The position numbers and the translations under genes are program-made. The notes beneath the pieces were generated by a model. The model did not search any database and was not told the origin of the DNA. It saw only the letters and a list, made by a program, of their open reading frames with translations. DNA of 32,190 nucleotides from Bacteroidales bacterium (lineage in GTDB: Bacteria > Bacteroidota > Bacteroidia > Bacteroidales > UBA3824), in the NCBI GenBank assembly GCA_017541145.1, contig JAFXZT010000153.1, forward strand, positions 1 through 32,190, read 5' to 3'. Shown here one piece after another: positions 2,566 through 16,874 of the stretch. The number at the start of each line of letters is the position of its first letter. Position 1 is the first letter of the stretch.

Positions 2566-2591
2566 CGCACTCGTTTGCGGTAACGGTTGCA
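2566..2591. promoter_or_regulatory. Two LacI operator-like sites upstream of lacI
   Basis: CGCACTCGTTTGCG (2566-2579) is one base from a perfect palindrome and differs at one position from the site before the third amylase. A degenerate second site (2578-2591, CGGTAACGGTTGCA, 10 of 14 matches to consensus) has its centre 12 bp further on. A weak -7-like TACCTTTA lies at 2637-2644. The arrangement suggests that lacI controls itself. Confidence 0.6.
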
Positions 2592-2733
2592 AAACTTTTT
2601 TTTCAACTTTTATTTTCCAATATCAGTAATAATACTTACCTTTAAGCGAATTTTTCGATAAATGGATTGTCAAAATAACACTAAAATATAACTATTAAAA
2701 AAAAGACTTTGTATTATAACTACTTCTAATATT

Positions 2734-3759
2734 ATGACGAACAAAAGGCAAGCAACGATAAAAGACATCGCAAAAAGACTTGGGCTCTCTGCTTCTACAG
2801 TTTCCCGTGCGCTAAAAGACCATCCGGATATCAGCCTCGAAACCAAAGATGCTGTAAAAAAAACTGCTGAAGAACTTGATTATCAACCTAATGCTTTGGC
2901 ATTGGGACTTCATAATCAAAAGAGTAATATTATAGGTGTAATAATTCCGCAAATTATTCACTACTTTTTTTCGGCAGTAATCAGCGGCATTGAACGCGAA
3001 GCTAGAAAAAAAGGTTACAATGTAATTATCTGTCAGAGCGACGAAAGCATGGAACGTGAAATAGAAAACATCAAGGCTTTGGTATCGCTACGTGTAGACG
3101 GATTTTTGATTTGTATCACCAAAGAGACCAAGGATTATGCTCATTTTCAAAAACTTATGAGTAGAAATGTACCTGTAGTATTTTTCGACCGTCCTCCCGA
3201 GGGATTTGCTTGCGACAGATGTATCATCGACGATTATGCTGCGGCGTATCAGGCTGCGGAACACCTTGTAAAACTTGGTAAAAAGAAAATTTTCCATTTT
3301 GCCGGTCCCGACAATGTAAGAATCGGTAAAGACCGCAGACGGGGTTTTGTAGACTGTATGAAACGCAACGGAATAAAAGTAGACGAAAACACTGTATTTA
3401 AATGCGACTCAAAAGAAGAAGCTAAAGATTTGATTGACAATCTAATAAAAGACAAAAATATTCCCGACGGAATTTTCTGTTGCAACGATACAACGGCAGT
3501 GGCTACAATAAACGCACTGGCAAAATATAATATAAAAGTGCCGGATCAGGTGGCTGTAGAAGGATTTTCAAATGATTTGATTTCGCAACTTTATACACCG
3601 TCGCTTACTACGATAGATCAAAACGGCGGACTTGTAGGCGAAAAAGCATTCGGTTTGCTGCTCAAAAGAATAGAATCTCAGGATTTTACTTCGTATCAAA
3701 CTGTAATAGTACCTACAAAATTGATTGTAAGAGAGTCAACAATCGGCGACATCGAATAG
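2734..3759 (+). CDS. LacI family transcriptional regulator of the maltose/starch locus
   Basis: A 341-residue protein with the classic LacI layout. Residues about 8-27 form the HTH (TIKDIAKRLGLSASTVSRAL), then comes the hinge helix (YQPNALALGL), then the periplasmic-binding-protein-like effector domain beginning NIIGVIIP and ending in the TTIDQNGGLVGEKAFGLL segment. Such proteins bind palindromic DNA with a central CG, and matching sites (TGCAAWCGTTTGCA) lie before this gene, the transporter operon and all three amylases. The maltose genes start 240 bp downstream on the same strand. The effector is inferred to be maltose or a maltose derivative. The operator positions suggest it may activate rather than only repress. 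Family assignment is certain; the regulon is inferred from sites. Confidence 0.93.
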   Translation: MTNKRQATIKDIAKRLGLSASTVSRALKDHPDISLETKDAVKKTAEELDYQPNALALGLHNQKSNIIGVIIPQIIHYFFSAVISGIEREARKKGYNVIICQSDESMEREIENIKALVSLRVDGFLICITKETKDYAHFQKLMSRNVPVVFFDRPPEGFACDRCIIDDYAAAYQAAEHLVKLGKKKIFHFAGPDNVRIGKDRRRGFVDCMKRNGIKVDENTVFKCDSKEEAKDLIDNLIKDKNIPDGIFCCNDTTAVATINALAKYNIKVPDQVAVEGFSNDLISQLYTPSLTTIDQNGGLVGEKAFGLLLKRIESQDFTSYQTVIVPTKLIVRESTIGDIE

Positions 3760-3782
3760 TAAGAAATAATAAAAAATGCAAT

Positions 3783-3796
3783 TGCAAACGTTTGAA
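3783..3796. promoter_or_regulatory. LacI operator upstream of the transporter operon
   Basis: TGCAAACGTTTGAA is a palindrome except for its last bases. Its centre (3789.5) is about 84 bp upstream of the -7 box at 3874, some two helical turns further than the roughly 62 bp seen at the amylase promoters. It starts only 24 bp after the lacI stop codon. Confidence 0.7.
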
Positions 3797-3850
3797 AAAC
3801 AACGAAAGGCTAAAAAATTTATAAAATTGTGATTTTTTTGTTTTAAACTA

Positions 3851-3881
3851 TTGCAAGATAATATTTTTTAGCCTATATTTG
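3851..3881 (+). promoter_or_regulatory. Promoter of the maltose transporter/phosphorylase operon
   Basis: TTG (3851-3853), a 20-nt spacer and TATATTTG (3874-3881) match the Bacteroidota -33/-7 consensus. The predicted leader is about 110 nt long. Confidence 0.8.
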
Positions 3882-4001
3882 CAGTAATAAAATCTCCAAA
3901 ACAATCTCTTCTAAGATATACCATTAAAGTTTTTAGTAGTCGGTGCACATATATATTTTGTAAAAAAATAAAAATTATAATAAAAATAAAAAGCATCGAA
4001 T

Positions 4002-5357
4002 ATGACTAAAAAACCAAAACTAAGTTTTTGGCAAATCTGGAACTTAAGTTTCGGATTTTTGGGCGTACAATTTGGATTTGCGCTTCAGAATGCCAATGTA
4101 AGCAGAATATTATCAAATTTAGGAGCAGACCCCAACAATTTGTCTTTGTTTTGGTTGGCGGCACCAATCATGGGACTTATCGTACAACCGATAGTTGGAG
4201 GCGCATCCGACCATACTTGGAACCGACTCGGTAGAAGATTTCCTTATATCCTCGGCGGTGCAATTATATCGGTACTCGCGATGTTTTTCATGCCGAACTC
4301 TGCTATCGTAACTGCAATAATGCCTCCGTTGGTATTCGGAGCGATAATGATGGCTTTGATGGACGGAAGTTTCAATGTAACATTCCAACCGTTCAGAAGC
4401 TTGGTTTCGGATATGCTTCCCGAAGAACAAAAAAATGTCGGCTACTCAATCCAAAGTTTTCTTATCAATGTAGGTTCGGTATTGGGTTCTGTTTTACCGT
4501 ACATCCTTACCAACTGGTTTGGCGTAAACAACACCGCAGCCGAGGGTCACGTACCGGATTCCGTAATTTGGAGTTTCTATATCGGCGGCGCAGTTTTGAT
4601 GTTGACAGTACTCGTTACCATTTTCACCACCAAAGAATACACACCGGAGCAAATGAAAGAGTTTGCGACTGAAAACAATGAAGAGAAATCTCAATCAGAA
4701 AACAAGAGCGAAGGTTTGATTTCTCTTATCAAAAACGCACCGAAAATCATGTGGCAACTCGCTGTTGTACAGTTTTTTGCATGGTTCGCATTATATTTGA
4801 TGTGGACTTATACCACTTCTGCCGTAGCTCAACACTATTGGGGCACAGAGATTTCGGATACCAAATCAGAAGCATTCAACGAAGCCGGCAACTGGGTAGG
4901 AATTATATTCGGAGCTTACGGCGTATTTGCAGCACTTTTTGCATTGTGCATGCCAAAACTTATCAAATTGTTTAGCCGCAAAATCGTTTACGCAGCAGCC
5001 TTAGCCTGTGGCGGACTCGGTTTTATTTCAATGATAATTTTCACTGATCCAAACATGTTAATTATTAGCATGATAGGAATCGGTATCGCATGGGCTGCAA
5101 TTCTTGCACTTCCGTTTGCAATACTTTCAAGCTCGCTCCCTCAAGAAAAAACCGGAGTTTACCTCGGAATTTTCAACTTCACAGTATCAGTACCGCAAAT
5201 TGTAAGCGGACTTGTTGGCGGTGTAATTTTGAAATACGCATTCAACAGCCAATCAATTAAAATACTCGTATTGTGCGGAGTATCAATGATTTTGGGCAGT
5301 ATATTTGCGTTGACTCTCAAGGATAAACAAAATCAAGAATCAGAAAAATCGAAATAA
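4002..5357 (+). CDS. MFS sugar (probably maltose) transporter, SLC45/GPH-like
   Basis: A 451-residue inner-membrane protein with about 12 hydrophobic segments and a charged central loop (residues about 205-235, rich in E, K and N) between the two six-helix halves. After the second or third helix it carries SDHTWNRLGRRFPY, the D-x-x-x-x-R-x-GRR-P signature of SLC45/GPH-type sugar symporters common in Bacteroidota. The N-terminus LSFWQIWNLSFGFLGVQFGF is typical of this group. It is first in an operon with beta-phosphoglucomutase (60-nt gap) and maltose phosphorylase, so the cargo is most likely maltose or short maltooligosaccharides, driven by an ion gradient. Substrate is inferred from context. 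Confidence 0.9.
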   Translation: MTKKPKLSFWQIWNLSFGFLGVQFGFALQNANVSRILSNLGADPNNLSLFWLAAPIMGLIVQPIVGGASDHTWNRLGRRFPYILGGAIISVLAMFFMPNSAIVTAIMPPLVFGAIMMALMDGSFNVTFQPFRSLVSDMLPEEQKNVGYSIQSFLINVGSVLGSVLPYILTNWFGVNNTAAEGHVPDSVIWSFYIGGAVLMLTVLVTIFTTKEYTPEQMKEFATENNEEKSQSENKSEGLISLIKNAPKIMWQLAVVQFFAWFALYLMWTYTTSAVAQHYWGTEISDTKSEAFNEAGNWVGIIFGAYGVFAALFALCMPKLIKLFSRKIVYAAALACGGLGFISMIIFTDPNMLIISMIGIGIAWAAILALPFAILSSSLPQEKTGVYLGIFNFTVSVPQIVSGLVGGVILKYAFNSQSIKILVLCGVSMILGSIFALTLKDKQNQESEKSK

Positions 5358-5417
5358 TTAAAAATTAAAAAAATTCATATAAACTATTATTTATCAAACA
5401 GAATTATTGAATAAACA

Positions 5418-6068
5418 ATGATAACAGCATGTATATTTGATTTGGACGGAGTATTAGTAGACTCGGCAAAATATCACTATCTCGCATGGAAAGCACTTGC
5501 AGACAAACTCGGTTTTGAATTTACTGAAAAACACAACGAACGTCTCAAAGGTGTATCAAGAATGAAATCTCTTGAAATTCTTCTTGAAGTAGGCGGAATA
5601 ACGATGACTCAAGAAGAAAAAGAAAAAGCTGCAACCGAAAAAAACGAACTCTACAGAAGCTATATTTCCAAGATGACTCCCGACGAAATTCTTCCCGGAG
5701 TAGAAACTTTTTTGAAAGAGATTAAAGCATTGGGAATCAAAACTTCAATAGGTTCGGCCAGCAAAAATACTTCGCTGATAATGGAACGTACCGGACTCAG
5801 CAAATATTTTGACGCGGTAGCTGACGGAACAATGGTAACAAAAGCAAAACCCGATCCTGAAGTTTTCTTGAAAGGTGCAGAACTTTTGAATACCGATCCG
5901 AAAGAATGTGTGGTTTTTGAAGACGCAGAAGCCGGAGTAGAAGCCGCTCATAATGCAGGAATGAGAGCCGTAGGAATCGGTTCTACAAGTACTTTGGGCA
6001 AAGCAGAAATCGTAATTCCGGGCTTTACTGGTTTTGATTTCAAAACTTTGAAAGATAAAATTGATTAA
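5418..6068 (+). CDS. pgmB: Beta-phosphoglucomutase (HAD family)
   Basis: A 216-residue cytoplasmic HAD enzyme that converts beta-D-glucose-1-phosphate to glucose-6-phosphate. The N-terminus carries the DxD motif (FDLDGVLVDSAKYHYLAW), with Asp8 as the phosphorylated nucleophile and Asp10 as the acid/base. The cap domain follows (residues about 15-90), then the SAS-K-N motif, KAKPDPEVFLKGAELL and the metal-binding FEDAEAGVEAA. Length is normal for the family. It sits between the transporter and the maltose phosphorylase (29-nt gap), whose product is its substrate, which supports this specificity over other HAD phosphatases. Confidence 0.94.
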   Translation: MITACIFDLDGVLVDSAKYHYLAWKALADKLGFEFTEKHNERLKGVSRMKSLEILLEVGGITMTQEEKEKAATEKNELYRSYISKMTPDEILPGVETFLKEIKALGIKTSIGSASKNTSLIMERTGLSKYFDAVADGTMVTKAKPDPEVFLKGAELLNTDPKECVVFEDAEAGVEAAHNAGMRAVGIGSTSTLGKAEIVIPGFTGFDFKTLKDKID

Positions 6069-6097
6069 CAAATAACTCAAAAAATATTCTTCAGACA

Positions 6098-8389
6098 ATG
6101 AAAAACTATATCAAATACGATCCGTGGAAAATAATTGAGGATTCTTATAATCCGGAATACAACAAAATTTCCGAAAGTATCTGTTCTCTCGGAAACGGCA
6201 AAGGCGGACAACGCGCCAATTTTGAAGAAACATTCACAGGCAAAACATTGCAAGGAAGCTATGTTTCAGGCGTTTACTATCCTGACAAAACAAGAGTCGG
6301 CTGGTGGAAAAACGGTTATCCTGAATATTTTGCCAAAATGCTGAATGCGCCGTCATGGATTGGAATAAAAATCAATATCGAAGGCGAAGAACTTGATTTG
6401 GCAAAATGTCTCGTAAGCCAATTTTCAAGAGTTTTGGATATGAAACGTGGCGTATTGGAACGTCATTTTGTAGCTACAACCAACAGCGGCAAAAAAGTAG
6501 AAGTAAATTCTACAAGATTTTTATCAATTGTAAGAGACGAAATCGGAGCTATAAAATACAGTATCAAACCTCTGAATTTCAGCAGCAAAGCAACAATTAC
6601 CTGCGATGTTGACGCTGATATCAAAAACGAGGATTCAAACTACGACGAAAAATTCTGGATAGAAATCAACAAAGATGCTGACAAAAATATTTTTGTAACA
6701 GCCGAAACCAAGAAAACACAATTCAGAGTTTGTACCGCAATTTTCAACAAATTCAGCAGCGAACCGATTTCGCAACAATCCATTGTTAAAGAAAAATATG
6801 CCGGCAAAATTTACACTGTAAATTTATCTGAAAATCAAGAATTTACAATTTACAAATACGCCGCAATAACTTCTACGATGTATTACACCGAAAACGAAAT
6901 CGAAAGTAAAACAATCGAAGAACTCAACCAAGCAGCCTCTGACGGTTTCAACCTTTTGCTTGATGAACAAGTAAAGGCATGGGACGAAAAATGGAAGGAA
7001 TCAGACATCATAATTGACGGCGATGTTGCTGCTCAACAAGGTATCAGATTCAATATCTTCCAACTCAACCAAACTTACACCGGACGCGACGAACGATTGA
7101 ATATCGGTCCCAAAGGCTTTACCGGTGAAAAATACGGCGGTACAACTTATTGGGACACAGAAGCTTATTGTTTACCGTTTTACTTAGCAACAGCTGACAA
7201 AAAAGTTGCACATTCGTTGTTGGTTTACCGTTGGAAACACTTACAAAAGGCAATCGAAAATGCAAAAAAACTCGGCTTCACAAACGGTGCAGCCCTCTAC
7301 CCTATGGTAACAATCAACGGCGAAGAATGTCACAACGAATGGGAAATTACATTTGAGGAAATTCACCGCAACGCTGCAATTGCCAATGCTGTAAGGATTT
7401 ACGTAGATTATACCGGCGAAAAGAAATATCTTGCAGATTACGGTTTGGAAGTTCTTATCGGAATTTCAAGATTTTGGGCTCAACGCGTAAACTGGAGCGA
7501 AGACAAACAAAAATATGTAATGCTCGGTGTTACAGGTCCTAACGAATACGAAAACAATGTCAATAACAACTGGTACACTTCATATTCAGCAGTTCAGAAC
7601 TTGAAATATACCATTTTTGCAATCAATTTTGTAAAAGAAAATTATGCTACAGACTGGAAACGTATTCAAGAAGTAACAAAATTCGATGAAAAAGAAATCG
7701 AAAAATGGAATGATATCATCCTCAAGATGTATCTCGGTTACGACGAAAAACGCGGAGTTTTCATTCAGAACGACGGTTTCATGGACAAAGAATTGATTCC
7801 GGTTTCTCAACTTTCCGAATCTCAACGTCCTATCAATCAGCATTGGAGTTGGGACAGAATATTACGAAGCTGTTACATAAAACAAGCCGACGTTTTGCAA
7901 GGTATTTATTTCTTTGAACATCAATTTGATAACGATACAATCAAACGCAATTTTGAATTTTACGAACAATTTACTGTTCACGAAAGTTCGTTATCAAGCT
8001 GCATTCACAATATTTTGGCGGCAAAAGTCGGATTGTACGACAAAGCTTATCAGTTTTATCTGAATGCCAGCCGTTTGGATTTGGACGATTACAACAACGA
8101 TACTTGCGACGGTTGCCATATCACCTCAATGGGCGGCACTTGGATGACAATAGTTCAAGGATTCGGCGGCATGAGAGTAAAAGACGGAATGTTATCGTTT
8201 AACCCGATAATTCCGGAAAAATGGAACAAATACGCTTTCAAAATCCGTCACAAAGACAATATCTTGAAAATTGAAGTTGAAAAGAATAGTGTCAACATCG
8301 AAAACATCGGTGACAACCCGGCAAAAGTTCTAATCAAAGGCAATGAGGTTGAAATAAAACCTCACTCTGAAACGAAAACAAAGATGTAA
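6098..8389 (+). CDS. Maltose phosphorylase (GH65)
   Basis: A 763-residue cytoplasmic enzyme that splits maltose with inorganic phosphate into glucose and beta-glucose-1-phosphate. It has the GH65 N-terminal beta-sandwich, an (alpha/alpha)6 catalytic barrel with GGTTYWDTEAYCLPF, NEWEITFEEIHRNAAI and VTGPNEYENNVNNNWYT, and a small C-terminal beta domain. Glu483 in GPNEYE matches the known general acid of GH65 phosphorylases. The EEIHRN segment fits maltose phosphorylases, while trehalose and kojibiose phosphorylases usually differ there. Last gene of the transporter-pgmB operon, closed by a terminator at 8401. Trehalose or kojibiose specificity cannot be fully excluded from sequence, but the amylase-rich context favours maltose. 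Confidence 0.93.
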   Translation: MKNYIKYDPWKIIEDSYNPEYNKISESICSLGNGKGGQRANFEETFTGKTLQGSYVSGVYYPDKTRVGWWKNGYPEYFAKMLNAPSWIGIKINIEGEELDLAKCLVSQFSRVLDMKRGVLERHFVATTNSGKKVEVNSTRFLSIVRDEIGAIKYSIKPLNFSSKATITCDVDADIKNEDSNYDEKFWIEINKDADKNIFVTAETKKTQFRVCTAIFNKFSSEPISQQSIVKEKYAGKIYTVNLSENQEFTIYKYAAITSTMYYTENEIESKTIEELNQAASDGFNLLLDEQVKAWDEKWKESDIIIDGDVAAQQGIRFNIFQLNQTYTGRDERLNIGPKGFTGEKYGGTTYWDTEAYCLPFYLATADKKVAHSLLVYRWKHLQKAIENAKKLGFTNGAALYPMVTINGEECHNEWEITFEEIHRNAAIANAVRIYVDYTGEKKYLADYGLEVLIGISRFWAQRVNWSEDKQKYVMLGVTGPNEYENNVNNNWYTSYSAVQNLKYTIFAINFVKENYATDWKRIQEVTKFDEKEIEKWNDIILKMYLGYDEKRGVFIQNDGFMDKELIPVSQLSESQRPINQHWSWDRILRSCYIKQADVLQGIYFFEHQFDNDTIKRNFEFYEQFTVHESSLSSCIHNILAAKVGLYDKAYQFYLNASRLDLDDYNNDTCDGCHITSMGGTWMTIVQGFGGMRVKDGMLSFNPIIPEKWNKYAFKIRHKDNILKIEVEKNSVNIENIGDNPAKVLIKGNEVEIKPHSETKTKM

Positions 8390-8399
8390 CATCTAATCC

Positions 8400-8475: not shown

Positions 8476-8489
8476 TGCAATCGTTTGCA
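8476..8489. promoter_or_regulatory. LacI operator upstream of the T9SS amylase gene
   Basis: TGCAATCGTTTGCA, followed by CATTTTT as at the second amylase. The centre (8482.5) is 62.5 bp before the -7 box at 8545. Confidence 0.78.
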
Positions 8490-8544: not shown

Positions 8545-8552
8545 TAAAATTG
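8545..8552 (+). promoter_or_regulatory. -7 box of the T9SS amylase gene
   Basis: TAAAATTG has one mismatch to TAnnTTTG and is identical to the box of the second amylase (12289-12296). No TTG is present at the -33 position, which fits a promoter needing an activator at the upstream operator. Confidence 0.55.
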
Positions 8553-8584: not shown

Positions 8585-11383
8585 ATGAAAAGACTCTTTT
8601 ACACCTTATTGATAATTTTTGCCGCCGTTTCGTTTTCGTGCGGACAAATTATAGAATGTAATCCGGAATTTCCAAATATCAATTCCAACGATATTGTAAT
8701 CACGTTTCATGCTGATAAAGGTTCGGGCGGTTTGAAAAATTTTTCCGGCGATATTTATGCTCATACCGGCGTAATCCTAAAAGGCGGCAGCGATTCCGAT
8801 TGGAAATATGTCGTTGCAGACTGGAATAAAAATGTTGAAAAATGTAAACTTACTAAGACCGATGCAAATACCTATACTTTGAATATCGGCAATATCAAAT
8901 CATTTTACAATCTAAAAGATGATGACGCCGAAAAAGTTGAAAAACTGGCTTTTGTATTCCGCTCGTCAGACGGTAAAAAAGAAGGTAAAGAAACAGGCGG
9001 TAAAAATATTTTTCAAGAAATTTACGAAGCCAACAAACTAAATATCAGCATATTATCACCATCACAATCGCCATATTTTGTAGACCCGAATCAGCAGATT
9101 ACAATTTCGGTAGCGATTTCTGAGCCGGCAATTATTACGTATAGTGTTGACAATGAAACTGTTAAAAAAGAAACACAAGAAAAGACAAACTCATCTTATT
9201 CTATTTCAGCACTTTCTAACGGTATTCACACAATAACAATTACAGCCGAAACTGCCGACAATTCTGCTACTGCAACTTCTCAATATATCGTAAGACAAAA
9301 TGCAGAAACCGCAGAAATGCCAAAAGATTTGCGCCGTGGTGTTAACAAAATTTCTGACAATTCTGCAACTTTTGTTCTCTTTGCTCCAAACAAATCTTCG
9401 GCTTACGTTATCGGAGATTTCAACAATTGGAATATTGACAATCAGTCAGTTATGAAAAAAAACGGTGATTATTTTTTCTGTACAATCAGCGGTTTGGACA
9501 AAGACAAAGAATACGCTTATCAATACATCGTTGACGAAAATATCAGAATTGCAGACCCTTACACCGAAAAAATTCTCGATCCCGACAACGACAAATATAT
9601 TTCTAACTCAGTGTATCCGAATTTGAAATCTTATCCCGAAAACAAAACCACGGGAATAGTTTCAACTTTTACTCTAAACAAAAATCAATACGACTGGTCA
9701 GTTAAAAATTTTAAAACTCCATCAGCCAAAGACCTTGTAATTTACGAACTTTTGATTAGAGATTTTTCAACGGAAGGTACTGTAAAAGCCGTAACTCAAA
9801 ATCTTGATTATCTGGAGAAATTGGGTGTTAATGCAATAGAACTTATGCCGTTTTCAGAATTTGAAGGCAACGACAGTTGGGGCTATAATCCGTCGTATTA
9901 TTTTGCTGCCGACAAGGCTTACGGCACTGCTGACGATTACAAAGAATTTATAGATGAATGTCACAAACGCGGAATTGCAGTAATTCAAGACATCGTTTTG
10001 AATCATGCGTTCGGTTCATGTCCGTTCGTAAAGATGTATTACAACGAATCAACATACAAAGTAACGTCCGAAAATCCGTGGTTTAATGTAGAATCGCCAA
10101 ATACGCTTTACTCTTGGGGTTACGATTTCAATCACGAAAGCGAGGAAACTCAAAAGTTGGTAGACTCTGTAATGTCTTATTGGATAAGCGAATACAATAT
10201 TGACGGTTTCCGTTTTGACTTTACAAAGGGTTTTACAAACAAGCCTGCAAGTACCGATGCTCAATGCTCGGCTTACGATGAATCGCGAATTACAATTCTA
10301 AAACGTATTTACAACACAATAAAATCATACAAATCAGACGCTTACATGATTTGCGAGCATCTTACAGACAACAGCGAAGAAAAAGTACTTGCCAACCACG
10401 GAATTATGCTTTGGGGCAATCTCAACTGGGCATTTTGTCAATCCGGCATGGGCTACGGCGACGGTAGCAGCATTTCATGGGGAAATTATCTAAACCGCGG
10501 TTTTGAACTTCCGGCACTTATAACTTACGCTGAAAGTCACGACGAAGAACGTATGATGTACAAATGTTTACAATACGGCAACACAGCTTCGGGATACAGC
10601 GTAAAAAATTTGGAAACTGCTTTGGAACGCATGAAAGGTACTGCAACAATGCTGCTTGCAACTCCCGGACCTAAAATGATTTGGCAATTTGGCGAGTTAG
10701 GATACGACTATTCAATCAATTACGACATCACAGCCAACGCCGTTAACGACAGTTACAGAACAAACAGAAAACCTGTTCCGGAAGGATATTTGGACGTAGA
10801 TTCACGAAAATCGTTGTACAATTTTTATAGCAACCTCAACAAACTTCGTAAAACCAACGATGCAATGCTAAACGGAACTTCAAAACTTGAAGAAGAGTAT
10901 AACGGATTATTGAAAAAAGTATACAGAAAATCACAAAATGCGAATTTGATTTTTGTAACAAATTTCAATACAACCAACAGCAATACAACCATAAAATTTG
11001 CTCATACCGGCACATGGTACAATATATGCAGCGGCGAATCGTTAACTGTTTCAAGTTCAGAAGTTAACATCGAAATAAAAGCCGGCGAAACAATCATTTA
11101 TTCCGACCAAGAAACGGATATTATGACTGCCACAACAGATGTAATTCCCGAAAAAATTGTAGCTGACATCAAAATATATCCGAATCCGTGTAGCGAATAT
11201 ATTACAGTTTCTACCGACAACAAAATTGACAAAATTACGATATTAAATTCCAACGGACAGCAAGTAAAGACTTTACAACCCGATCAAAATATTATTAATG
11301 TTTCGGATTTAAAATGCGGAGTATATTTGATTCATCTAAAATCCGGCAATCTCAATTTTGTAAAAAAGGTTATTAAAAATTAG
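8585..11383 (+). CDS. Secreted multidomain alpha-amylase (GH13) with T9SS sorting domain
   Basis: A 932-residue exported enzyme. Residues 1-19 form a signal peptide ending FSC; the -3 residue is a poor lipobox, so a cleaved non-lipid signal is more likely. Then follow a possible starch-binding domain (about 35-150), an Ig/E-set-like domain (about 155-240), a CBM48-like domain (about 255-340, APNKSSAYVIGDFNNW) and the GH13 barrel (about 365-720). Catalytic residues are visible: Asp545 (GFRFDF), Glu591 (MICEHL) and Asp653 (AESHDEE). The last ~70 residues (IKIYPNP start, YLIHLKSG..., basic KKVIKN end) are a type A T9SS C-terminal sorting domain, so the enzyme is sent across the outer membrane. 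It has its own operator, promoter and terminator. Likely role: extracellular starch endohydrolysis, possibly pullulanase-like. Confidence 0.92.
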   Translation: MKRLFYTLLIIFAAVSFSCGQIIECNPEFPNINSNDIVITFHADKGSGGLKNFSGDIYAHTGVILKGGSDSDWKYVVADWNKNVEKCKLTKTDANTYTLNIGNIKSFYNLKDDDAEKVEKLAFVFRSSDGKKEGKETGGKNIFQEIYEANKLNISILSPSQSPYFVDPNQQITISVAISEPAIITYSVDNETVKKETQEKTNSSYSISALSNGIHTITITAETADNSATATSQYIVRQNAETAEMPKDLRRGVNKISDNSATFVLFAPNKSSAYVIGDFNNWNIDNQSVMKKNGDYFFCTISGLDKDKEYAYQYIVDENIRIADPYTEKILDPDNDKYISNSVYPNLKSYPENKTTGIVSTFTLNKNQYDWSVKNFKTPSAKDLVIYELLIRDFSTEGTVKAVTQNLDYLEKLGVNAIELMPFSEFEGNDSWGYNPSYYFAADKAYGTADDYKEFIDECHKRGIAVIQDIVLNHAFGSCPFVKMYYNESTYKVTSENPWFNVESPNTLYSWGYDFNHESEETQKLVDSVMSYWISEYNIDGFRFDFTKGFTNKPASTDAQCSAYDESRITILKRIYNTIKSYKSDAYMICEHLTDNSEEKVLANHGIMLWGNLNWAFCQSGMGYGDGSSISWGNYLNRGFELPALITYAESHDEERMMYKCLQYGNTASGYSVKNLETALERMKGTATMLLATPGPKMIWQFGELGYDYSINYDITANAVNDSYRTNRKPVPEGYLDVDSRKSLYNFYSNLNKLRKTNDAMLNGTSKLEEEYNGLLKKVYRKSQNANLIFVTNFNTTNSNTTIKFAHTGTWYNICSGESLTVSSSEVNIEIKAGETIIYSDQETDIMTATTDVIPEKIVADIKIYPNPCSEYITVSTDNKIDKITILNSNGQQVKTLQPDQNIINVSDLKCGVYLIHLKSGNLNFVKKVIKN

Positions 11384-11392
11384 TTTTTCAAA

Positions 11393-11430
11393 AAGGATTA
11401 TCCAACGAGCGGATAATCCTTTTTTTTTTT
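11393..11430 (+). terminator. Terminator of the T9SS amylase gene
   Basis: Perfect 11-bp stem AAGGATTATCC (11393-11403) with GGATAATCCTT (11411-11421), a 7-nt loop, then a run of T. Confidence 0.92.
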
Positions 11431-11548
11431 ATATTTTTTAATTGCTAATTTTGCAAAAAACTACAAGAATTAGCAAGATTTCTTTGTTACAACATGTTTG
11501 CTAATTTTTGACTATCGCCCTAATTTGTATTTTCACGACCCAATATCG

Positions 11549-12121
11549 TTATTTATTATTTTCCATCATTTTTTGTCTGTGTTGAACTCTAGCTTTTGTT
11601 AAGGCGCGTTGTTTTTCTTCCTCTGACCAATTAGGATCGATATAAACTTTTATTGTACCCGAATATCCGCGCTTATATTTTTCGGGAAGATCTGAGTTAG
11701 AATTACTTAAAGCAATTTTGCCTCTTCCGTTACATCTTGTACAATTCCATACAAGTTTACCATTACCGCTACATGTCATGCAACGATTGAAACCTGTAGC
11801 ATCACACGAAGTACAATTGATAAAACCTTCTGAATTGCAACGTTCGCAATTTAGATTACCTTCATCGTTGCAATAATTGCAATTTTCGGAATTGAGACCG
11901 TGACAATGAGTACAACGCAAAAATCCCGAACCGCCACAAAAGGTACAACGAATTTGTTTTTTGCCGTAACAAAGCGAACATTCACGATTGCCTGTGCCGT
12001 GACACGAACTGCACTCGTTTGCAATTTTTCCTGAACCATGACAATCGTCACAATCCGTTTGCGCTTTTACATCAAATGTCATCATCGTAAAAAACGCAAT
12101 TAAAAGTAGTAGCTGTTTCAT
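11549..12121 (-). CDS. Exported Cys-rich protein with DnaJ-type zinc-finger repeats
   Basis: A 190-residue protein with a signal peptide ending DVKA before QTDCDDC. Residues about 22-135 hold ten CxxC motifs (CDDC, CSSC, CSLC, CTFC, CTHC, CNYC, CERC, CTSC, CMTC, CTRC) spaced about 8-12 residues apart, several as CxxCxGxG like the DnaJ cysteine-rich domain. The first CHGSGK and last CNGRGK units are the most canonical. The C-terminal ~55 residues are charged and contain IDPNWSEEEKQRALTKAR. Such repeats normally bind zinc in pairs of CxxC motifs. It is a lone minus-strand gene between two amylase genes, with a possible promoter of the TTG/TATTTTTTTTG type near 12144-12179. Partner and function are unknown. 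Confidence 0.85.
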   Translation of the reverse strand: MKQLLLLIAFFTMMTFDVKAQTDCDDCHGSGKIANECSSCHGTGNRECSLCYGKKQIRCTFCGGSGFLRCTHCHGLNSENCNYCNDEGNLNCERCNSEGFINCTSCDATGFNRCMTCSGNGKLVWNCTRCNGRGKIALSNSNSDLPEKYKRGYSGTIKVYIDPNWSEEEKQRALTKARVQHRQKMMENNK

Positions 12122-12219
12122 AATCTGTAGAATAAAAAAGGTTCAAAAAAAATAGTACTACTAATACGATTTAATACAAAAAGATGTTGTAAAAATTTAG
12201 TTAAAAAACATTATTAAGT

Positions 12220-12233
12220 TGCAAACGTTTGCA
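12220..12233. promoter_or_regulatory. LacI operator upstream of the lipoprotein amylase gene
   Basis: TGCAAACGTTTGCA is a perfect 14-bp palindrome followed by CATTTTTT. The centre (12226.5) is 62.5 bp before the -7 box at 12289, the same distance as at the first amylase. Confidence 0.82.
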
Positions 12234-12288
12234 CATTTTTTTTAACTGTTTTGTATTTAAAAATCACGCTTTTATCGGGATAATTTCA

Positions 12289-12296
12289 TAAAATTG
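12289..12296 (+). promoter_or_regulatory. -7 box of the lipoprotein amylase gene
   Basis: TAAAATTG, same sequence and same distance from the operator as the box at 8545. The predicted start of transcription leaves a leader of only about 20 nt. No -33 TTG is seen. Confidence 0.55.
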
Positions 12297-12322
12297 CAAA
12301 AAACAAAAAGCTACTAAAAACC

Positions 12323-13591
12323 ATGAAAAAATTATTGTATTTATTATTGTCGGCGGCAATGGTTTCGTGCGGCAATGTTAACGAAAAAACTGCCGAAATT
12401 TCTACAGAAAATGTCAACGGCAAAGACAATATTTACGAAGTAAATATCCGTCAATACACTCAAGAAGGAACATTCAAAGCATTTGAAGACAATCATCTCG
12501 AACGTTTAAAAGAGCAGAATGTTGATATTTTGTGGCTTATGCCGATTTTTCCGATTAGCGAGGAAGGCAGAAAAGGTACGCTCGGAAGTTATTATGCCGT
12601 AAAAAATTACACCGAAGTAAATCCTGAATTTGGAACTCTCAACGACTTGCAAAACCTTGTAAATCATGCTCATAAACTCGGCATGAAAGTTATTTTGGAC
12701 TGGGTTGCAAATCATACGGGAAAGGATAACGTTTGGACAAAAGAGCACAAGGATTTTTACAATCTTGATTCATTGGGAAATCCGGCAATCCCCGAAGGCA
12801 CGGATTGGGACGATGTTGCAGACCTCAATTACGACAATCCTCAAATGCGTAAAGCAATGATTGAGGCAATGAAATTTTGGCTCAAAAATGCTGACATCGA
12901 CGGTTTCAGATGTGATGTAGCGGGCATGGTTCCGACCGATTTTTGGGTAGAATGCCGCAAAGAATTAGAAACGGTTAAAAAGCCTATTTTCATGCTTGCC
13001 GAAGATGACAAACCCGAAATTCACAAGGCTTTTGACGCAAGTTATAATTGGAAACTTCACCACGTTTTAAACAAAATTGCTCAGGGCAAAAACACCGCTG
13101 ACAGTTTGGCTGCACTCATTTTGAAAGAAGAAAAAGATTTTCAGAAAAATGATATTTTAATGAATTTCACCTCCAATCACGACGAAAATTCTTGGAGCAA
13201 ATCCGAATACGACCGTATGGGTGATTATGTTAAATCAATGGCGGTTTTAACATATTTTCTTCCCGGAATGCCGCTTTGTTATTCGGGACAAGAGGCGGCA
13301 AACCGAAAAGCTTTGGAATTTTTTGAAAAAGATGTAATTGACTTTTCAAATGTACCGTTGAAAGATTTTTATGCAGAATTGAATAAGACAAAACATTCAC
13401 ATTCAGCACTTTGGAACAACGACATAAAAATCATCAGCAGCAACGACAATGTTTTCGTTTTTGAAAGACAAAGTAAAGACGAAAAGATTCTTTGTATCTT
13501 CAACTTCAACGAAGGCGAAAAAGAAGTGTCGTTGGAAGGCGGCAAAAATATTAAAGTAGAAGGTAAAGGTTACAAAATAATGTTTGAATAG
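12323..13591 (+). CDS. Lipoprotein alpha-amylase family enzyme (GH13)
   Basis: A 422-residue enzyme. Residues 1-16 form a lipoprotein signal peptide (AAMVSC followed by G, Cys16 lipidated), so it is membrane-anchored, periplasmic or surface-exposed. The GH13 barrel spans about residues 38-350 and is compact. Catalytic residues are Asp198 (GFRCDVAG), Glu227 (MLAEDDK) and Asp287 (TSNHDENSW), with the conserved DWVANHTG region earlier. A small C-terminal beta domain (about 360-422) follows. It probably trims maltooligosaccharides made by the larger secreted enzyme. It has its own LacI operator and ends at a long hairpin. The exact cleavage specificity cannot be read from sequence. Confidence 0.92.
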   Translation: MKKLLYLLLSAAMVSCGNVNEKTAEISTENVNGKDNIYEVNIRQYTQEGTFKAFEDNHLERLKEQNVDILWLMPIFPISEEGRKGTLGSYYAVKNYTEVNPEFGTLNDLQNLVNHAHKLGMKVILDWVANHTGKDNVWTKEHKDFYNLDSLGNPAIPEGTDWDDVADLNYDNPQMRKAMIEAMKFWLKNADIDGFRCDVAGMVPTDFWVECRKELETVKKPIFMLAEDDKPEIHKAFDASYNWKLHHVLNKIAQGKNTADSLAALILKEEKDFQKNDILMNFTSNHDENSWSKSEYDRMGDYVKSMAVLTYFLPGMPLCYSGQEAANRKALEFFEKDVIDFSNVPLKDFYAELNKTKHSHSALWNNDIKIISSNDNVFVFERQSKDEKILCIFNFNEGEKEVSLEGGKNIKVEGKGYKIMFE

Positions 13592-13618
13592 TTGAATTTT
13601 CAACAAAATCACAAAAAT

Positions 13619-13675
13619 AAGAAATTGTCTAAAAAGAAACCCAAAAAGTTCCTTTTTAGACAATTTCTTTTTATA
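13619..13675 (+). terminator. Long hairpin terminator after the lipoprotein amylase gene
   Basis: A perfect 18-bp stem (13619-13636 with 13652-13669) with a 15-nt loop is followed by T-rich sequence. The stem is unusually long for a terminator and is AT-rich. Confidence 0.8.
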
Positions 13676-13750
13676 TTTACCTCTGCAATGTGCAAAACCG
13701 CAATCTTAACCAAAACATTTTTTGGCAAACCCTGCTTGTCTGAGCGGCGG

Positions 13751-13784
13751 GCGGTTTCGGAGATTATTTCTGTGGAAATACCGC
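13751..13784. repeat. Imperfect GC-rich inverted repeat
   Basis: GCGGTTTC (13751-13758) pairs with GAAATACCGC (13775-13784) with one bulged base. It sits in a locally GC-rich stretch (about 13725-13795) that stands out from the AT-rich spacer, which suggests a conserved dispersed or structured element. Confidence 0.4.
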
Positions 13785-13869
13785 AATGGGTGTTACCTTT
13801 TGCAACATTTAGACGTAGTACAATAAGATTAGTTTCATCAAAATTATATGCGTAGATTATTATTTTTAG

Positions 13870-13903
13870 CATTAATTGTCTTTTTTGACAATTAATGTTT
13901 TTT
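13870..13903 (+). terminator. Terminator-like hairpin in spacer
   Basis: Perfect 11-bp stem CATTAATTGTC (13870-13880) with GACAATTAATG (13887-13897), a 6-T loop and a following 7-T run. There is no protein gene directly before it, so it may end read-through or an unseen small RNA. Confidence 0.7.
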
Positions 13904-13993
13904 CTCAAAATTTTCGGAATTTTAATTCTGAATATGTAGTTTTCACAGAACAAATTGATTCGATAATACTGAAAAAACATCTTCAATATTTTG

Positions 13994-14043
13994 TTAGATG
14001 CGACCAAATCAATGGTTTTTACCCCACTTTTGGTCGCATCTAA
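13994..14043. repeat. Perfect 15-bp inverted repeat with 20-nt loop
   Basis: TTAGATGCGACCAAA (13994-14008) and its exact reverse complement (14029-14043) enclose a loop with TACCCCAC. No U-run follows on either strand, so it is not a standard terminator; it lies about 20 bp before the promoter of the candidate RNA. Confidence 0.75.
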
Positions 14044-14059
14044 TAAAAATTATATTTTT

Positions 14060-14089
14060 TTTGCACGAAATCATTTTTTTTTACTTTTA
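14060..14089 (+). promoter_or_regulatory. Possible promoter of the candidate structured RNA
   Basis: TTTG (14060-14063) and TACTTTTA (14082-14089, one mismatch to TAnnTTTG) are 18 nt apart. Start of transcription would be near 14097. Confidence 0.45.
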
Positions 14090-14096
14090 CACTAAA

Positions 14097-14342
14097 AATA
14101 TTGGGCGTTTATTTACGCTATTAGTTTTTGACGCACTGAAACTTCGCAACTTTCACTGAAATAGTCAGAAACAATAGCAACGATAAACGCCGTGGGTAGA
14201 TAATGCAGGAACGCAATTTTTTTGTGTGTCTTTGTTATACTTACGGCGTGAGGATTCGTTGCTTGTTTCTCTATTTCAGGTAATGCGAAGACCTCAGTGC
14301 GTGGAAACGAGCAGAATATGGATTCCACGCTTATTTTTTTTC
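14097..14342 (+). ncRNA. Candidate structured non-coding RNA (~245 nt)
   Basis: The 5' part folds into one long rod. GGCGTTTAT (14104-14112) pairs with ATAAACGCC (14183-14191). Then GCTATT (14117-14122) pairs with AATAGC (14173-14178) and GTTTTTGAC (14124-14132) with GTCAGAAAC (14164-14172, one G-U). The rod is topped by TGAAA (14137-14141) with TTTCA (14151-14155). The 3' part has GAGG..TTCG (14250-14258) with CGAA..CCTC (14286-14295). The end is a classic terminator. No plus-strand ORF spans it; a 71-codon minus-strand frame lies across it and runs into the terminator stem. The family is not recognised. Confidence 0.6.
14299..14341 (+). terminator. Terminator of the candidate structured RNA
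   Basis: Perfect 8-bp stem GCGTGGAA (14299-14306) with TTCCACGC (14323-14330) followed by TTATTTTTTTT. It ends about 50 nt before the HTH gene. Confidence 0.85.
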
Positions 14343-14391
14343 AAGTCTGAAATCGGAATCTAATCGGACACAAAAACTTTCTTGTCAAAAT

Positions 14392-14610
14392 ATGTGCATA
14401 CATGTCGGACAAATGATACAACAACGTTTGAAACAACAAGGGCAAAGCGTTACATGGTTTGCAAAACAATTATGTTGTAACCGCACTAATATTTATAATA
14501 TTTTCAAGAAAGAAAACGTTGATACAGAACTACTTAAACATATTTGTATCATTCTTAATTACAACTTTTTTCAAGATATGGCGGACAATATAAAACTATC
14601 AGAAAAATAA
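14392..14610 (+). CDS. Small HTH (XRE-like) DNA-binding protein
   Basis: A 72-residue protein. Residues about 6-60 form a helix-turn-helix domain: QMIQQRLKQQGQSVTWFAKQ, then CNRTNIYNIFKKENVDTELL. This SVTWFA...DRTN-x-Y-x-IF pattern is a widespread small Bacteroidota regulator of unknown target, usually 65-80 residues long. It starts about 50 nt after the candidate RNA terminator, and its last 40 bases overlap, in opposite direction, the 3' end of the RAYT gene. The first ATG (14392) gives a slightly long N-terminus; a start a few codons later is possible. Confidence 0.75.
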   Translation: MCIHVGQMIQQRLKQQGQSVTWFAKQLCCNRTNIYNIFKKENVDTELLKHICIILNYNFFQDMADNIKLSEK

Positions 14611-15080
14611 AATTTATCCTCATACCATTTTGCGGGATTGTTTTTGATGTATTCGGTAATTGTAACGTGCATATCAGAATCCCTGATAATTGAATCATAA
14701 TAATCTCGTTGCCATAATTTTTGGTCAAAGCGTTTCCAACCGTATGCTTTTACACCTTTTATATAATCGTTTGTTGTCATTGTTTTAAACCATCTGACAA
14801 TATCGCCGATTAAATTATCTGTTTTTTCAAAAATATGTATTATGCAATGAAAATGATTTGGCATTACAACATAATCTAAACAATTAATATTATGATATTT
14901 AGACGATAATTCATTATACCATTTTTCAACCATTTTACCGGCATCATTCAAAAACATTGTTTTATCAGCGATATATCCGAACATATTTTCACGGTTTTGA
15001 CAACAAATTGTCAAAAAATACAATCCACGTTGTCCGTAATCGTAATTTTTCAAACGGTGGCTTTGACGGTTATACATCAT
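14571..15080 (-). CDS. REP-associated tyrosine transposase (RAYT, Y1_Tnp/IS200-like)
   Basis: A 169-residue Y1 transposase of the RAYT type. MPNHFHCI gives the HxH metal site (His76, His78). LWQRDYYDSIIRD (about 122-134) is the conserved RAYT segment, with the probable nucleophilic tyrosine at 127 or 128. EYIKNNPAKW (143-152) is the usual C-terminal signature. RAYTs are single-copy, host-kept relatives of IS200/IS605 transposases that act on REP palindromes. A GC-rich nested palindrome with REP-like arms lies 165-360 bp upstream of its start (15246-15437), which fits. Length is complete. It overlaps the 3' end of the HTH gene by 40 bp. Confidence 0.9.
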   Translation of the reverse strand: MMYNRQSHRLKNYDYGQRGLYFLTICCQNRENMFGYIADKTMFLNDAGKMVEKWYNELSSKYHNINCLDYVVMPNHFHCIIHIFEKTDNLIGDIVRWFKTMTTNDYIKGVKAYGWKRFDQKLWQRDYYDSIIRDSDMHVTITEYIKNNPAKWYEDKFYFSDSFILSAIS

Positions 15081-15244
15081 ATTGTCATTTTTTTCAAAAG
15101 TATGAAAATGGATTTAAATTTCCAAATATTTTTTGCGTCATAATTTTTTTTCGTTTTATGACGGATACATTGATTTTGTTTTGGGCGGACACTTCGAGGC
15201 GTAATTTGAATCAAGGCGTATACATTTGTGTCGTAATTCGGGTC

Positions 15245-15437
15245 AGGGCGAACACATAGGTCCGCCCCTACAAATTGCCTTCTTTTTTTGTGGAGGACGG
15301 CGGACGGACAGAGCGGGAGGCGGCTTTGCCGCCTCCCGCTCTGTCCGCCCGCCGCCCATTCTCTCTCCTCCGTATACACATTGGATATTTGTAGGGGCGA
15401 ACCTATGTGTTCGCCATCACCTATGTGTTCGCCATCA
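15245..15437. repeat. REP/BIME-like nested inverted repeat beside the RAYT
   Basis: Two arms of about 25 bp, each itself an imperfect palindrome of the GGGCGAACACATAGGT-CCGCCC kind, face each other (15247-15271 and 15391-15415, 24 of 25 matches as reverse complements). Between them is a 27-bp stem (15298-15324 with 15328-15354, one mismatch) with a TTT loop. The right arm continues into two exact 18-bp copies of CCTATGTGTTCGCCATCA (15402-15419, 15420-15437). The element is far richer in G+C than its surroundings. It is probably a mobile or REP element served by the adjacent RAYT. Confidence 0.85.
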
Positions 15438-15555
15438 CCTCCAAACAAATGTGTCTACAAATTCGTAACATTTTTGTCGAAATATTGGAGACGGTGTTTT
15501 CTTGTTAGGGGAAAATTTTGTGCATTGTTTTGTCAAACAATCTTAAATCAAAAAA
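15438..15555. other. Spacer between REP-like element and interrupted gene
   Basis: Together with 15081-15244 this completes the stretch without protein genes. AT-rich, no clear promoter or hairpin recognised. ORFs running through the palindromes on both strands are products of the inverted repeat. Confidence 0.4.
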
Positions 15556-16143
15556 ATGATGAAACAAATGAACAAATTTATCGGCAAATTGCTTGTTTTG
15601 GCAGTTTTGCTTTCGTTGAGCGTTAATTTGTTTGCTTAACAATATGAAAAAGGACTTGTAAAAGTTCGCCAATATGATGGCATTTATGTCTTTTGTGATA
15701 ATGAACCTATTAGCGAATATGAAATTGTTAATAGAATGCAAATAAAACTTGCATGGTCAGGACATTATACTGAAATTAGAAAAAGATTTCTAAAAGAAGC
15801 CAAATCATATCCGATGGCACAAGCAATTGTACTTGCTGACGGTGGTAGAGCAATTGCAATTAAGTTTAAAGATTCTAATGATGAGAATATTGATATTGCC
15901 CGTGCAACAAAAGAAAACGGTGTATACATTTTCACGGATTGTACTCCGCTTTCAGAATATGAAGTTCTTGGAGAGAAGAAAGTTGCCTCAACAGCAAGAG
16001 CCGCAATGGGAATGTCAGTTTCATATACCACAGTGAAAGAAAAATTGACAAAAAAAGCCGTTAAAGAATATCCGAATGCGTCAGGCATTCTTTTGGATTT
16101 CGGTGGTGTATCAGATAAAACAGAAATTATAAAATTCAAATAA
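15556..16143 (+). pseudogene. Exported protein with duplicated domain, interrupted by an in-frame stop
   Basis: Reading from ATG 15556 gives a signal peptide (MMKQMNKFIGKLLVLAVLLS... ending NLFA), then TAA at 15637-15639, then an uninterrupted frame QYEKGLVKVRQYDG... to the stop at 16143. Only one codon breaks a 195-codon frame, right after the signal peptide; a CAA-to-TAA change would explain it. The mature part is two copies of a ~70-residue module: G-I/V-Y-V/I-F-x-D-x-x-P-I/L-SEYE, then KEA/KEYP-x-A, then I-K-F-K. The intact stretch from ATG 15736 to 16143 could be misread as a 135-residue gene. Twelve bases follow before the next gene. Function unknown. Confidence 0.75.
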
Positions 16144-16172
16144 ACTTATCAAAAAATGAAAAAGTAAAGTTT

Positions 16173-16721
16173 TTGTTCGCCATGTTACTTATGGTAACGG
16201 CGTTAGGATTCACCGCTTGTAGCGATGACGATGAAGGCAAATTAGTTTCGTTTGCCTCAGAACTCTCTGAACTTGGTGATGCTCTCGGCATGGAATTTAA
16301 GGAAAGTGATTTTCAATATAAAGGTACGGCAACCGTTTCAAAAAGCGGTGATAACAAAATCCTTATAAAAGAAGACGGTACTGACGGTGCCCAATGGATT
16401 TTGAACAACATCAGAGAAGCCTCAAACGGTTTTGTTTTCGATGTTGATGCAACAACCGTTGATGATGTTAAATTTACGAATTATTCAGGTTATCATCTTG
16501 AAGGTGAAACCAAAACATACGGCGGCGGTTATATTTCAACAAATAAGAAATTAGAATTCTACATTTATTCTACGATGGAAGAAGTTTTGGACGCGGCTCT
16601 TGATGAAGAAACGGAAGATGCTTTGGTAGACCTTCTTATCGCCGGTGGTTACACCGCTGAAGATGCAAAAGAAGATGCTAAACAAAAAGTTGTTTTTGAA
16701 TTTACTCTTACAAAAAAATAA
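16173..16721 (+). CDS. Small acidic lipoprotein, probable frameshift at its start
   Basis: The visible frame encodes a lipoprotein: hydrophobic core LLMVTALGFTAC then SDDDEG, with the Cys as the lipidation site. The mature part is acidic (about 165 residues) with YKGTATV, DGAQWIL and GGYISTNKKLEFYIYS. The only in-frame starts are TTG 16173 and ATG 16182, which give a signal peptide without a positive N-terminus. An ATG at 16156 reads MKK-stop; one extra A in the A-run after it would give MKKVKFLFAMLL..., a normal lipoprotein start. So a 1-base deletion (or a sequence error) is likely. It is 12 nt downstream of the interrupted gene, probably in one operon, and is closed by a terminator at 16762. 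No family recognised. Confidence 0.7.
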   Translation: MFAMLLMVTALGFTACSDDDEGKLVSFASELSELGDALGMEFKESDFQYKGTATVSKSGDNKILIKEDGTDGAQWILNNIREASNGFVFDVDATTVDDVKFTNYSGYHLEGETKTYGGGYISTNKKLEFYIYSTMEEVLDAALDEETEDALVDLLIAGGYTAEDAKEDAKQKVVFEFTLTKK

Positions 16722-16761
16722 AATTCAAAAAAATAAATCCGACAAATTATTTTATTGTTAC

Positions 16762-16798
16762 GCGGTTTTGGTTCTTGAAATCAAAAACCGCTTTTTTT
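16762..16798 (+). terminator. Terminator before the third amylase gene
   Basis: GCGGTTTT (16762-16769) pairs with AAAACCGC (16784-16791), followed by seven T. The T-run touches the LacI operator that begins at 16799. Confidence 0.85.
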
Positions 16799-16812
16799 CG
16801 CAATCGTTTGCG
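16799..16812. promoter_or_regulatory. LacI operator upstream of the SusA-like amylase gene
   Basis: CGCAATCGTTTGCG followed by CATTTT. The centre (16805.5) is 61.5 bp before the -7 box at 16867. Confidence 0.78.
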
Positions 16813-16866
16813 CATTTTCCTGTTTTAATTCTTAACAAAATATTATGCTTTTAGTCCTAAAAAAAT

Positions 16867-16874
16867 TAAATTTG
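16867..16874 (+). promoter_or_regulatory. -7 box of the SusA-like amylase gene
   Basis: TAAATTTG is a full match to TAnnTTTG. No TTG lies 20 nt upstream. The leader would be about 24 nt. Confidence 0.65.

Follow-up and report, generated by a model that had tools for sequence, protein, structure and literature searches.

A LacI-family regulator and operators at a fixed upstream distance in an alpha-glucan regulon of Bacteroidales, with probable class I-like activation

In a 32,190-nucleotide contig of a Bacteroidales bacterium (JAFXZT010000153.1 of assembly GCA_017541145.1; genome 4.63 Mb, 192 contigs), which we analysed over its whole length and call the window, a gene for a LacI-family regulator is followed by genes for a sugar transporter, a beta-phosphoglucomutase, a GH65 enzyme and three alpha-amylase-family proteins. 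Four palindromic operators in this cluster belong to a genus-wide alpha-glucan (starch/maltose) regulon, and at dozens of promoters of this one regulon the operator keeps a single distance, 61.5 or 62.5 bp, from the -7 box; a helix-stepped version of the arrangement recurs across the order in gut bacteria. Judged from sequence, the window LacI is probably the regulator of this regulon and acts as a class I-like activator that contacts RNA polymerase from about -74. LacI-family proteins are textbook repressors, and to our knowledge few activating members are understood mechanistically; the best-studied starch regulator of the order, SusR, is a protein of a different kind. The regulon provides a natural promoter set for probing how the RNA polymerase of Bacteroidota, with its unusual -7/-33 promoters, is switched on, and the spacing rule can predict regulated promoters from sequence.

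The palindrome is best written YGCAAWCGWTTGCR (the strict form). It is an even palindrome with a central CG, the form that the portion of PMC4052901 available to us gives for LacI/GalR operators, and it is present at the target genes of the window as follows, with distances measured from the operator centre to the first base of the -7 box:

3783..3796, plus strand: operator TGCAAACGTTTGAA of the transporter operon, one mismatch, 84.5 bp before the -7 box
3851..3853, plus strand: TTG, candidate -33 element of the transporter promoter, 23 bases before the box
3874..3881, plus strand: -7 box TATATTTG of the transporter operon
8476..8489, plus strand: operator TGCAATCGTTTGCA, no mismatch, 62.5 bp before the -7 box
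8545..8552, plus strand: -7 box TAAAATTG
12220..12233, plus strand: operator TGCAAACGTTTGCA, no mismatch, a perfect palindrome, 62.5 bp before the -7 box
12289..12296, plus strand: -7 box TAAAATTG
16799..16812, plus strand: operator CGCAATCGTTTGCG, two mismatches (T..A to C..G at both ends), 61.5 bp before the box
16867..16874, plus strand: -7 box TAAATTTG

An initial annotation had described 14-bp palindromes at these four positions as the operators of a LacI-type regulon. All four are present, its distances were confirmed, and so was the flank CATTTT, which follows the three amylase operators and is missing at the transporter operator. Direct reading of the sequence also bore out that the amylase promoters lack a -33 TTG (none starts 21–25 bases before their boxes) and that the transporter promoter has one; the proposed box consensus TAnnTTTG had to be corrected, as the two boxes TAAAATTG do not conform to it. 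With up to three mismatches the motif matches the window 23 times, compared to 11.05 ± 4.13 times in shuffled sequences, of which 1 of 100 reached 23. In the genome of origin, up to two mismatches gave 88 forward and 80 reverse matches versus 36 and 49 for the reversed pattern, and the strict form gave 6 versus 0. A GH97 gene of this genome carries a site with a single mismatch, paired at 62.5 bp with TAAGTTTA, which departs from the box consensus by one base.

The fixed spacing is evident when the genus is taken as a whole. Across 18 genomes the strict form occurs 60 times and the reversed pattern 4 times. We read all 60 sites, those of the window included, and at 50 of them the first base of a TAnnWTTG box lies 61.5 (24 sites) or 62.5 bp (26 sites) from the operator centre, compared to 111 of 22,400 random positions (0.5%) in the same loci. 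The other 10 sites were examined afterwards under looser rules, which allowed tandem copies and a relaxed box, and 8 of them then fit: a second copy lies 12 bp nearer in L196 (at 62.5), L208 (at 61.5, box TAAACTTG) and L218 (at 62.5), a third copy 24 bp nearer in L195 and L214 (at 61.5), and L200 has the box TAATTTCG at 61.5; both sites of L007 belong to an array as its outer copies, and the inner, one-mismatch copy of that array has TAACTTCG at 61.5. By their first residues, read by eye, the genus targets comprise the transporter, the beta-phosphoglucomutase, GH65 and three amylase types, and Pfam adds two TonB-dependent SusC-type receptors. In nine relatives (L127, L129, L130, L187, L198, L199, L212, L217 and L229), whose transporter genes were recognised by eye in the same manner, the transporter operator lies at 61.5 or 62.5 bp from a TAAAATTG box. 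The displacement by two helical turns noted in the initial annotation is thus real at one promoter, that of the window, and is ruled out as a general rule of the genus; the window transporter promoter seems to have been remodelled, in this single case, into a more self-sufficient one with the operator about two turns further away. Overlapping operator copies were also observed at a period of 12 bp (L007 3608-3645, L195 2501-2538, L196, L208, L189 and L226) or 13 bp (L129, L130); in these genus loci the copy closest to the box is 61.5 or 62.5 bp away from it. Operator overlaps of about 13 bp are described, in the part of PMC4052901 available to us, as conserved and hard to square with structures.

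To follow the spacing across the order, we searched 247 genomes for the motif followed by TAnnWTTG at 47.5–77.5 bp, which returned 104 matches, 10 in the own genus and 94 outside, compared to 9 in all for the reversed-pattern control. Outside the genus, 35 of the 94 fall at 60.5–63.5 bp, with lesser peaks at 49.5–52.5 (13) and 72.5–75.5 bp (19). The neighbouring distance ranges, 16.5–46.5 and 78.5–108.5 bp, contain 54 and 53 matches, or about 1.7 per bp, and relative to 1.73 per bp the main peak has a Poisson p of 3e-14. The 50 off-peak matches, after three rows of one repeat were dropped, show a period of 11–11.5 bp (p 0.009 and 0.002), and not of 10 or 10.5 bp (0.48 and 0.08). Rather than standing at random positions genome-wide, the outcome that the initial annotation had named as contrary to its proposal, the motif keeps its distance in genus and order, and the idea of a LacI-type regulon with helix-locked upstream operators is supported by both counts. 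Our first impression that the side peaks are free one-turn shifts was undercut, as they consist in part of 12-bp tandem arrays: 7 of the 19 matches at 72.5–75.5 bp are outer copies of an array with an inner copy at 60.5–62.5, and 7 of the 12 at 82.5–85.5 bp are outer copies whose next copy lies at 72.5–73.5, with a third at 60.5 in G134 (G037 is counted in both groups). In three of the 35 main-peak matches (G180, G082 and G230) an additional copy stands at 50.5–51.5 bp, 12 bp closer to the box, so the copy at 62 is not invariably the innermost one in the order. SusC-type genes (Pfam) in L276 and L279 still have a single operator at 72.5 bp.

The genes behind the order-level sites were read in 20 stretches carrying 22 of the 35 matches in the 62-bp class. 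Seven of the 22 lead to SusC-type TonB-dependent receptors, all by Pfam, an assignment that does not specify the sugar, and seven more to alpha-glucan proteins (GH97, glycogen phosphorylase, cyclomaltodextrinase, GH77 with CBM20, debranching enzyme, GH31 and a carbohydrate-binding-module protein); the remainder comprises one lacI, one GAPDH, two without evident link (L248), one doubtful (L238) and three without an open frame in the stretch. A separate reading of 19 stretches around LacI relatives of other families yielded 17 boxes at 22 intergenic sites; 7 of the boxes lie at 60.5–63.5 bp, and several of these places coincide with those found in the order search. Operator–box pairs at 62.5 and 50.5 bp also precede small genes that look CrcB-like by eye in two different genomes (L248, L269). 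We claim the 62-bp rule for the order only: none of 40 intergenic sites with at most one mismatch in Chitinophagaceae, Cytophagales and Flavobacteriia (L047-L103) has a box at 60.5–63.5 bp, the nearest two lying at 58.5. In four flavobacterial loci (L060, L071, L076 and L101) the imperfect palindrome TGCAAACCTTTGCA stands about 90 bp before a long, SusC-sized gene, and a simple pattern found no -7 box at 62 bp there.

The sites track the window-type LacI. In the genus, each of the 11 genomes with a LacI match (partial in G014) contains 2–8 strict sites, compared to 0, 0, 0, 0, 0, 1 and 2 in the seven genomes without one. GH65 is missing from the same seven genomes, which suggests that the whole system is gained or lost at once. 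Among 41 genomes of the order outside the genus (G018-G058), the composite of operator and box at 47.5–77.5 bp occurs in 14 of 21 with a LacI match and in 1 of 20 without (Fisher p=5e-5). The recognition-helix segment STVSRAL is identical in the window LacI and in eight LacI proteins seen from other families. In three relatives of one family (L236 in G151, L237 in G248 and L147 in G038), the same operator lies 61.5/62.5 bp from the box of a SusC-type gene and 24.5/25.5 bp from the box of lacI, where it would overlap the -33 region; this placement fits self-repression, and the operator is probably one site with two roles. More generally, lacI is divergent from operator-bearing SusC-type genes in L234, L236, L237, L274, L275, L279 and L283. 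In L147, L236, L237, L275, L279 and L283 the two genes diverge around shared operators, and L271 has lacI alone, without a SusC-type gene; the shared-operator distances in L271, L275, L279 and L283 differ from the 61.5/62.5 and 24.5/25.5 pattern of L147, L236 and L237.

The regulon promoters of the genus have a distinct character. When the 50 of them were aligned on the box, A/T tracts appeared near -50, -39, -28, -17 and -7, and Fourier analysis gave a peak at 10.5–11 bp (power 15.5, compared to 4.2 in 29 background promoters); the A/T phase of 23 spacer clusters near 10.75 bp is coherent (0.88, Rayleigh 2e-8). The background sets are small (29 promoters from the genus and 29 from other families), and their box is the nearest TAnnWTTG 18–120 bases before an open reading frame. 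A box with A at position 5 (TAnnATTG) is found in 70% of the 50 regulon promoters versus 2 of 29 in the background, and a TTG at -25 to -21 in 9 of 50 (3 of 23 cluster representatives) versus 14 of 29 (p=0.009). Only 1 of 34 order-level sequences has TAnnATTG, indicating that the weak box is a feature of the genus. In these 34 sequences the 10.5-bp power is 8.7 and a peak at 8.0 bp is nearly equal (7.3), which leaves the phasing insecure beyond the genus. CATTTT was seen as the flank after the operator in the genus, and the flanks listed for other families differ. Except for the A/T tracts, no conserved sequence-specific block was found between operator and box in the 50 genus promoters, and the 40 bp upstream of the operator (49 sequences) show nothing conserved beyond a T-rich edge.

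We propose that a LacI dimer would bind YGCAAWCGWTTGCR, centred 61.5 or 62.5 bp upstream of where the -7 box begins, and touch RNA polymerase from about -74; the flavobacterial -7 box spans -12 to -5 (PMC9723704, consulted in part), which would place the operator centre at about -73.5 or -74.5 relative to the presumed transcription start. With the sugar signal present, perhaps maltose or a maltodextrin, LacI would most likely act like a class I activator on promoters with a weak core, consisting of a TAAAATTG box and often lacking the TTG at -33, and its presumed partner would be the C-terminal domain of the polymerase alpha subunit (alpha-CTD). A distance constant within one base at many different genes indicates that occlusion alone is insufficient, which leaves polymerase contact as the economical reading, and the weakness of the genus boxes speaks for activation. 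The helix-stepped upstream placement resembles class I arrangements, with 61.5/62.5 in the genus and peaks at 51, 62 and 73 in the order, the side peaks being partly tandem arrays. A more far-reaching version is tentative, and we regard it as possible rather than probable: a Bacteroidales-wide LacI lineage would be a dedicated alpha-glucan class I activator at -74, with the T-tract directly behind the operator as the landing place of the alpha-CTD and phased A/T tracts that bend the spacer in the direction of polymerase and replace the -33 contact, and it would repress lacI from about -37.

Several observations weigh against activation by the window LacI. G017 contains two operators of perfect architecture (L221, L222) without a LacI or GH65 match, although the LacI gene may have been lost from the assembly; the lone site among the other LacI-less genus genomes is the one in L223. 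Sites and system are gained and lost together, so the co-occurrence in the genus may reflect few events. Two genus sites misfit the spacing: L223 falls within a coding frame, and L183 precedes a gene that by eye resembles a sugar kinase. The transporter promoter of the window itself departs from the 62-bp rule. Background promoters are also phased, if more weakly (coherence 0.47, p 0.0014). The depletion of -33 TTG, which the initial annotation had explained by LacI replacing that contact, is only partly supported: it holds relative to the genus background; the other-family background has TTG in 6 of 29, both backgrounds pooled give p=0.08, and the order-level 62-bp promoters (5 of 34) do not differ from the other-family background (p=0.74). 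This control weakened the loss of the -33 element as strong proof. Among the CcpA sites in PMC3463425, as far as its available text goes, one upstream site represses (lev) and activated genes are few. Likewise, the available part of PMC4693257 reports that GalR bound at OE (-60.5) inhibits gal P1, which has no -35 element, and activates P2, both by contact, so fixed spacing together with a missing -33 element is no proof of activation.

The GalR precedent is the basis for the main alternative, itself rather unlikely, in which LacI is a contact inhibitor, a repressor that holds RNA polymerase from the upstream site until sugar releases it. Fixed spacing suits any direct contact, and most LacI-family regulators are repressors; weak-looking cores with a TAAAATTG box are, on the other hand, needless for a repressor, and upstream CcpA sites activate as a rule in what is available of PMC3463425. 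Ordinary repression by steric occlusion or looping, with the spacing an accident of common descent, is improbable. It could draw on the partial orthology of the genus promoters, on the lacI operators at 24.5–25.5 bp in G038, G151 and G248, and on the finding that more than 75% of LacI-family sites lie 140–30 bp before the start codon (PMC4052901, seen in part). The 62-bp distance recurs, however, in other families at different kinds of genes, and sites at about -74 are clear of the core promoter. Among the genus loci read, second sites (at most one mismatch, 14–250 bp away, arrays excepted) were confined to L197, L219 and the window (12010, within a gene), indicating that looping pairs are not the rule.

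Still less probable is that LacI works on a second, unseen activator, located between operator and promoter or further upstream, which it would block or cooperate with. CytR is a LacI-family anti-activator of this kind, and CcpA at lev stops productive contact between LevR and RNA polymerase (PMC3463425, available text); the lack of a conserved block between operator and box or in the 40 bp upstream argues against such a partner. We give equally little credence to the possibility that the sites serve a different regulator that shares the motif. The operators of PurR-like proteins are almost the same as this motif, and six LacI-like candidates appeared at first look in the own genome. L271 encodes a LacI paralog with STVSRAL adjoining a mannitol-dehydrogenase-type gene and beside sites at 51.5 and 66.5 bp, so some order-level sites belong to other regulators, a further point against our proposal. 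A single protein of the own genome passes 1e-60, however, and the co-occurrence of sites and window-type LacI in genus and order, as well as the divergent lacI–SusC-type pairs, point to the window LacI.

Compared to known systems, the proposed activation resembles that by CRP, whose class I sites lie upstream at helical steps and work through the alpha-CTD; CRP belongs to another protein family, and a role of the alpha-CTD is only proposed here. LacI-family activators are already known elsewhere (CcpA, GalR). CcpA at cre sites of Bacillus subtilis shares the family, the palindrome with central CG, the position upstream of the core and the dependence on the helix face, and upstream sites activate ackA, pta and ilvB (PMC3463425, in the part available). 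CcpA differs in being global, in responding to HPr-Ser-P and in activating few promoters, whereas here a local sugar regulon uses one fixed distance. GalR at OE of the E. coli gal promoters is likewise a GalR/LacI-family dimer that touches RNA polymerase from upstream, with the helical face setting inhibition or activation (PMC4693257, partial text); it serves one operon, which has two promoters and a further operator, whereas here dozens of promoters share a fixed site at about -74. SusR of Bacteroides thetaiotaomicron also controls starch genes; it is described in the accessible part of PMC3878776 as a maltose-binding activator and as a membrane protein with a C-terminal DNA-binding domain unlike other known factors and with direct-repeat sites spaced 67 or 77 bp, which differs from the LacI domain layout of the window protein. 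The LacI regulators in the Bacteroides table of that source, as far as accessible, are KdgR, UxaR, UxmR and UxuR, of the same family and phylum; all are uronate regulators, and none is assigned to maltose or starch. Among top-ranked literature results, without most subscription papers or databases such as RegPrecise, we found no LacI-type maltose/starch activator in Bacteroidota.

The genes of the cluster were assigned as follows:

2734..3759, plus strand: LacI-family regulator, 341 aa (Pfam LacI helix-turn-helix PF00356 6.6e-14, Peripla_BP_1 PF00532 1.2e-34)
4002..5357, plus strand: MFS sugar transporter (Pfam MFS_1 7.2e-31, MFS_2 2.3e-14)
5418..6068, plus strand: beta-phosphoglucomutase (NCBIfam TIGR01990, 240.8 bits, cut-off 189.4)
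6098..8389, plus strand: GH65 maltose-phosphorylase-type enzyme (Pfam GH65 domains; NF010380, 1114.4 bits, cut-off 838), putatively a phosphorylase
8585..11383, plus strand: alpha-amylase-family protein with CBM48 and a type IX secretion tail (Pfam PF00128, PF02922, PF18962)
12323..13591, plus strand: GH13 alpha-amylase-family protein (Pfam PF00128 9.7e-38)
16905..18731, plus strand: cyclomaltodextrinase-type GH13 (Pfam PF00128, PF09087, PF10438)

The regulator has the LacI/GalR layout of an N-terminal helix-turn-helix and a periplasmic-binding-protein-like domain, with PF00356 and PF00532/PF13377 above cut-off. Of the proteins with solved structures, those closest to it in sequence are a LacI regulator (3ctp), PurR and CcpA, and a 65%-identical regulator occurs in an uncultured Bacteroidales bacterium from red deer. 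It fails the curated CcpA model TIGR01481 (172.2 bits, cut-off 442.35) and the equivalog models of PurR, RbsR, CytR and MalI (196.7/501, 207.2/382, 200.2/436 and 136.9/310 bits/cut-off).

A candidate fifth operator lies upstream of lacI, with an in-register box on the minus strand:

2566..2579, minus strand: candidate operator CGCAAACGAGTGCG (plus-strand letters CGCACTCGTTTGCG)
2504..2511, minus strand: TATTTTTG box, 61.5 bp from this operator and pointing away from lacI

The pair could drive a short RNA or a 336-aa open reading frame at 1224-2234, which has no Pfam match. A hairpin followed by seven T lies about 160 bases beyond this promoter, ahead of the reading frame (window 2320-2579, minus strand), and is absent from the results of a terminator scan. 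Nothing in the other 17 genomes of the genus matches the region 2240-2600 (E up to 0.001), its putative RNA folds no better than shuffled sequences (z -0.55), and Rfam detects only a tRNA in the window; a small RNA from this operator is only a lead.

Between two amylase genes of the regulon, at 13600-16720, the window contains a transposase-like gene and G+C-rich, repeated-looking DNA, and the cluster looks split by an insertion. The gene, at 14571-15080 on the minus strand, resembles REP-associated tyrosine (IS200-like) transposases at 70.7 bits, under the cut-off of 80. The reading frame at 18864-19880 has no Pfam or NCBIfam match; by eye it looks related to the one at 29-691, both having repetitive, glutamate/lysine-rich ends.

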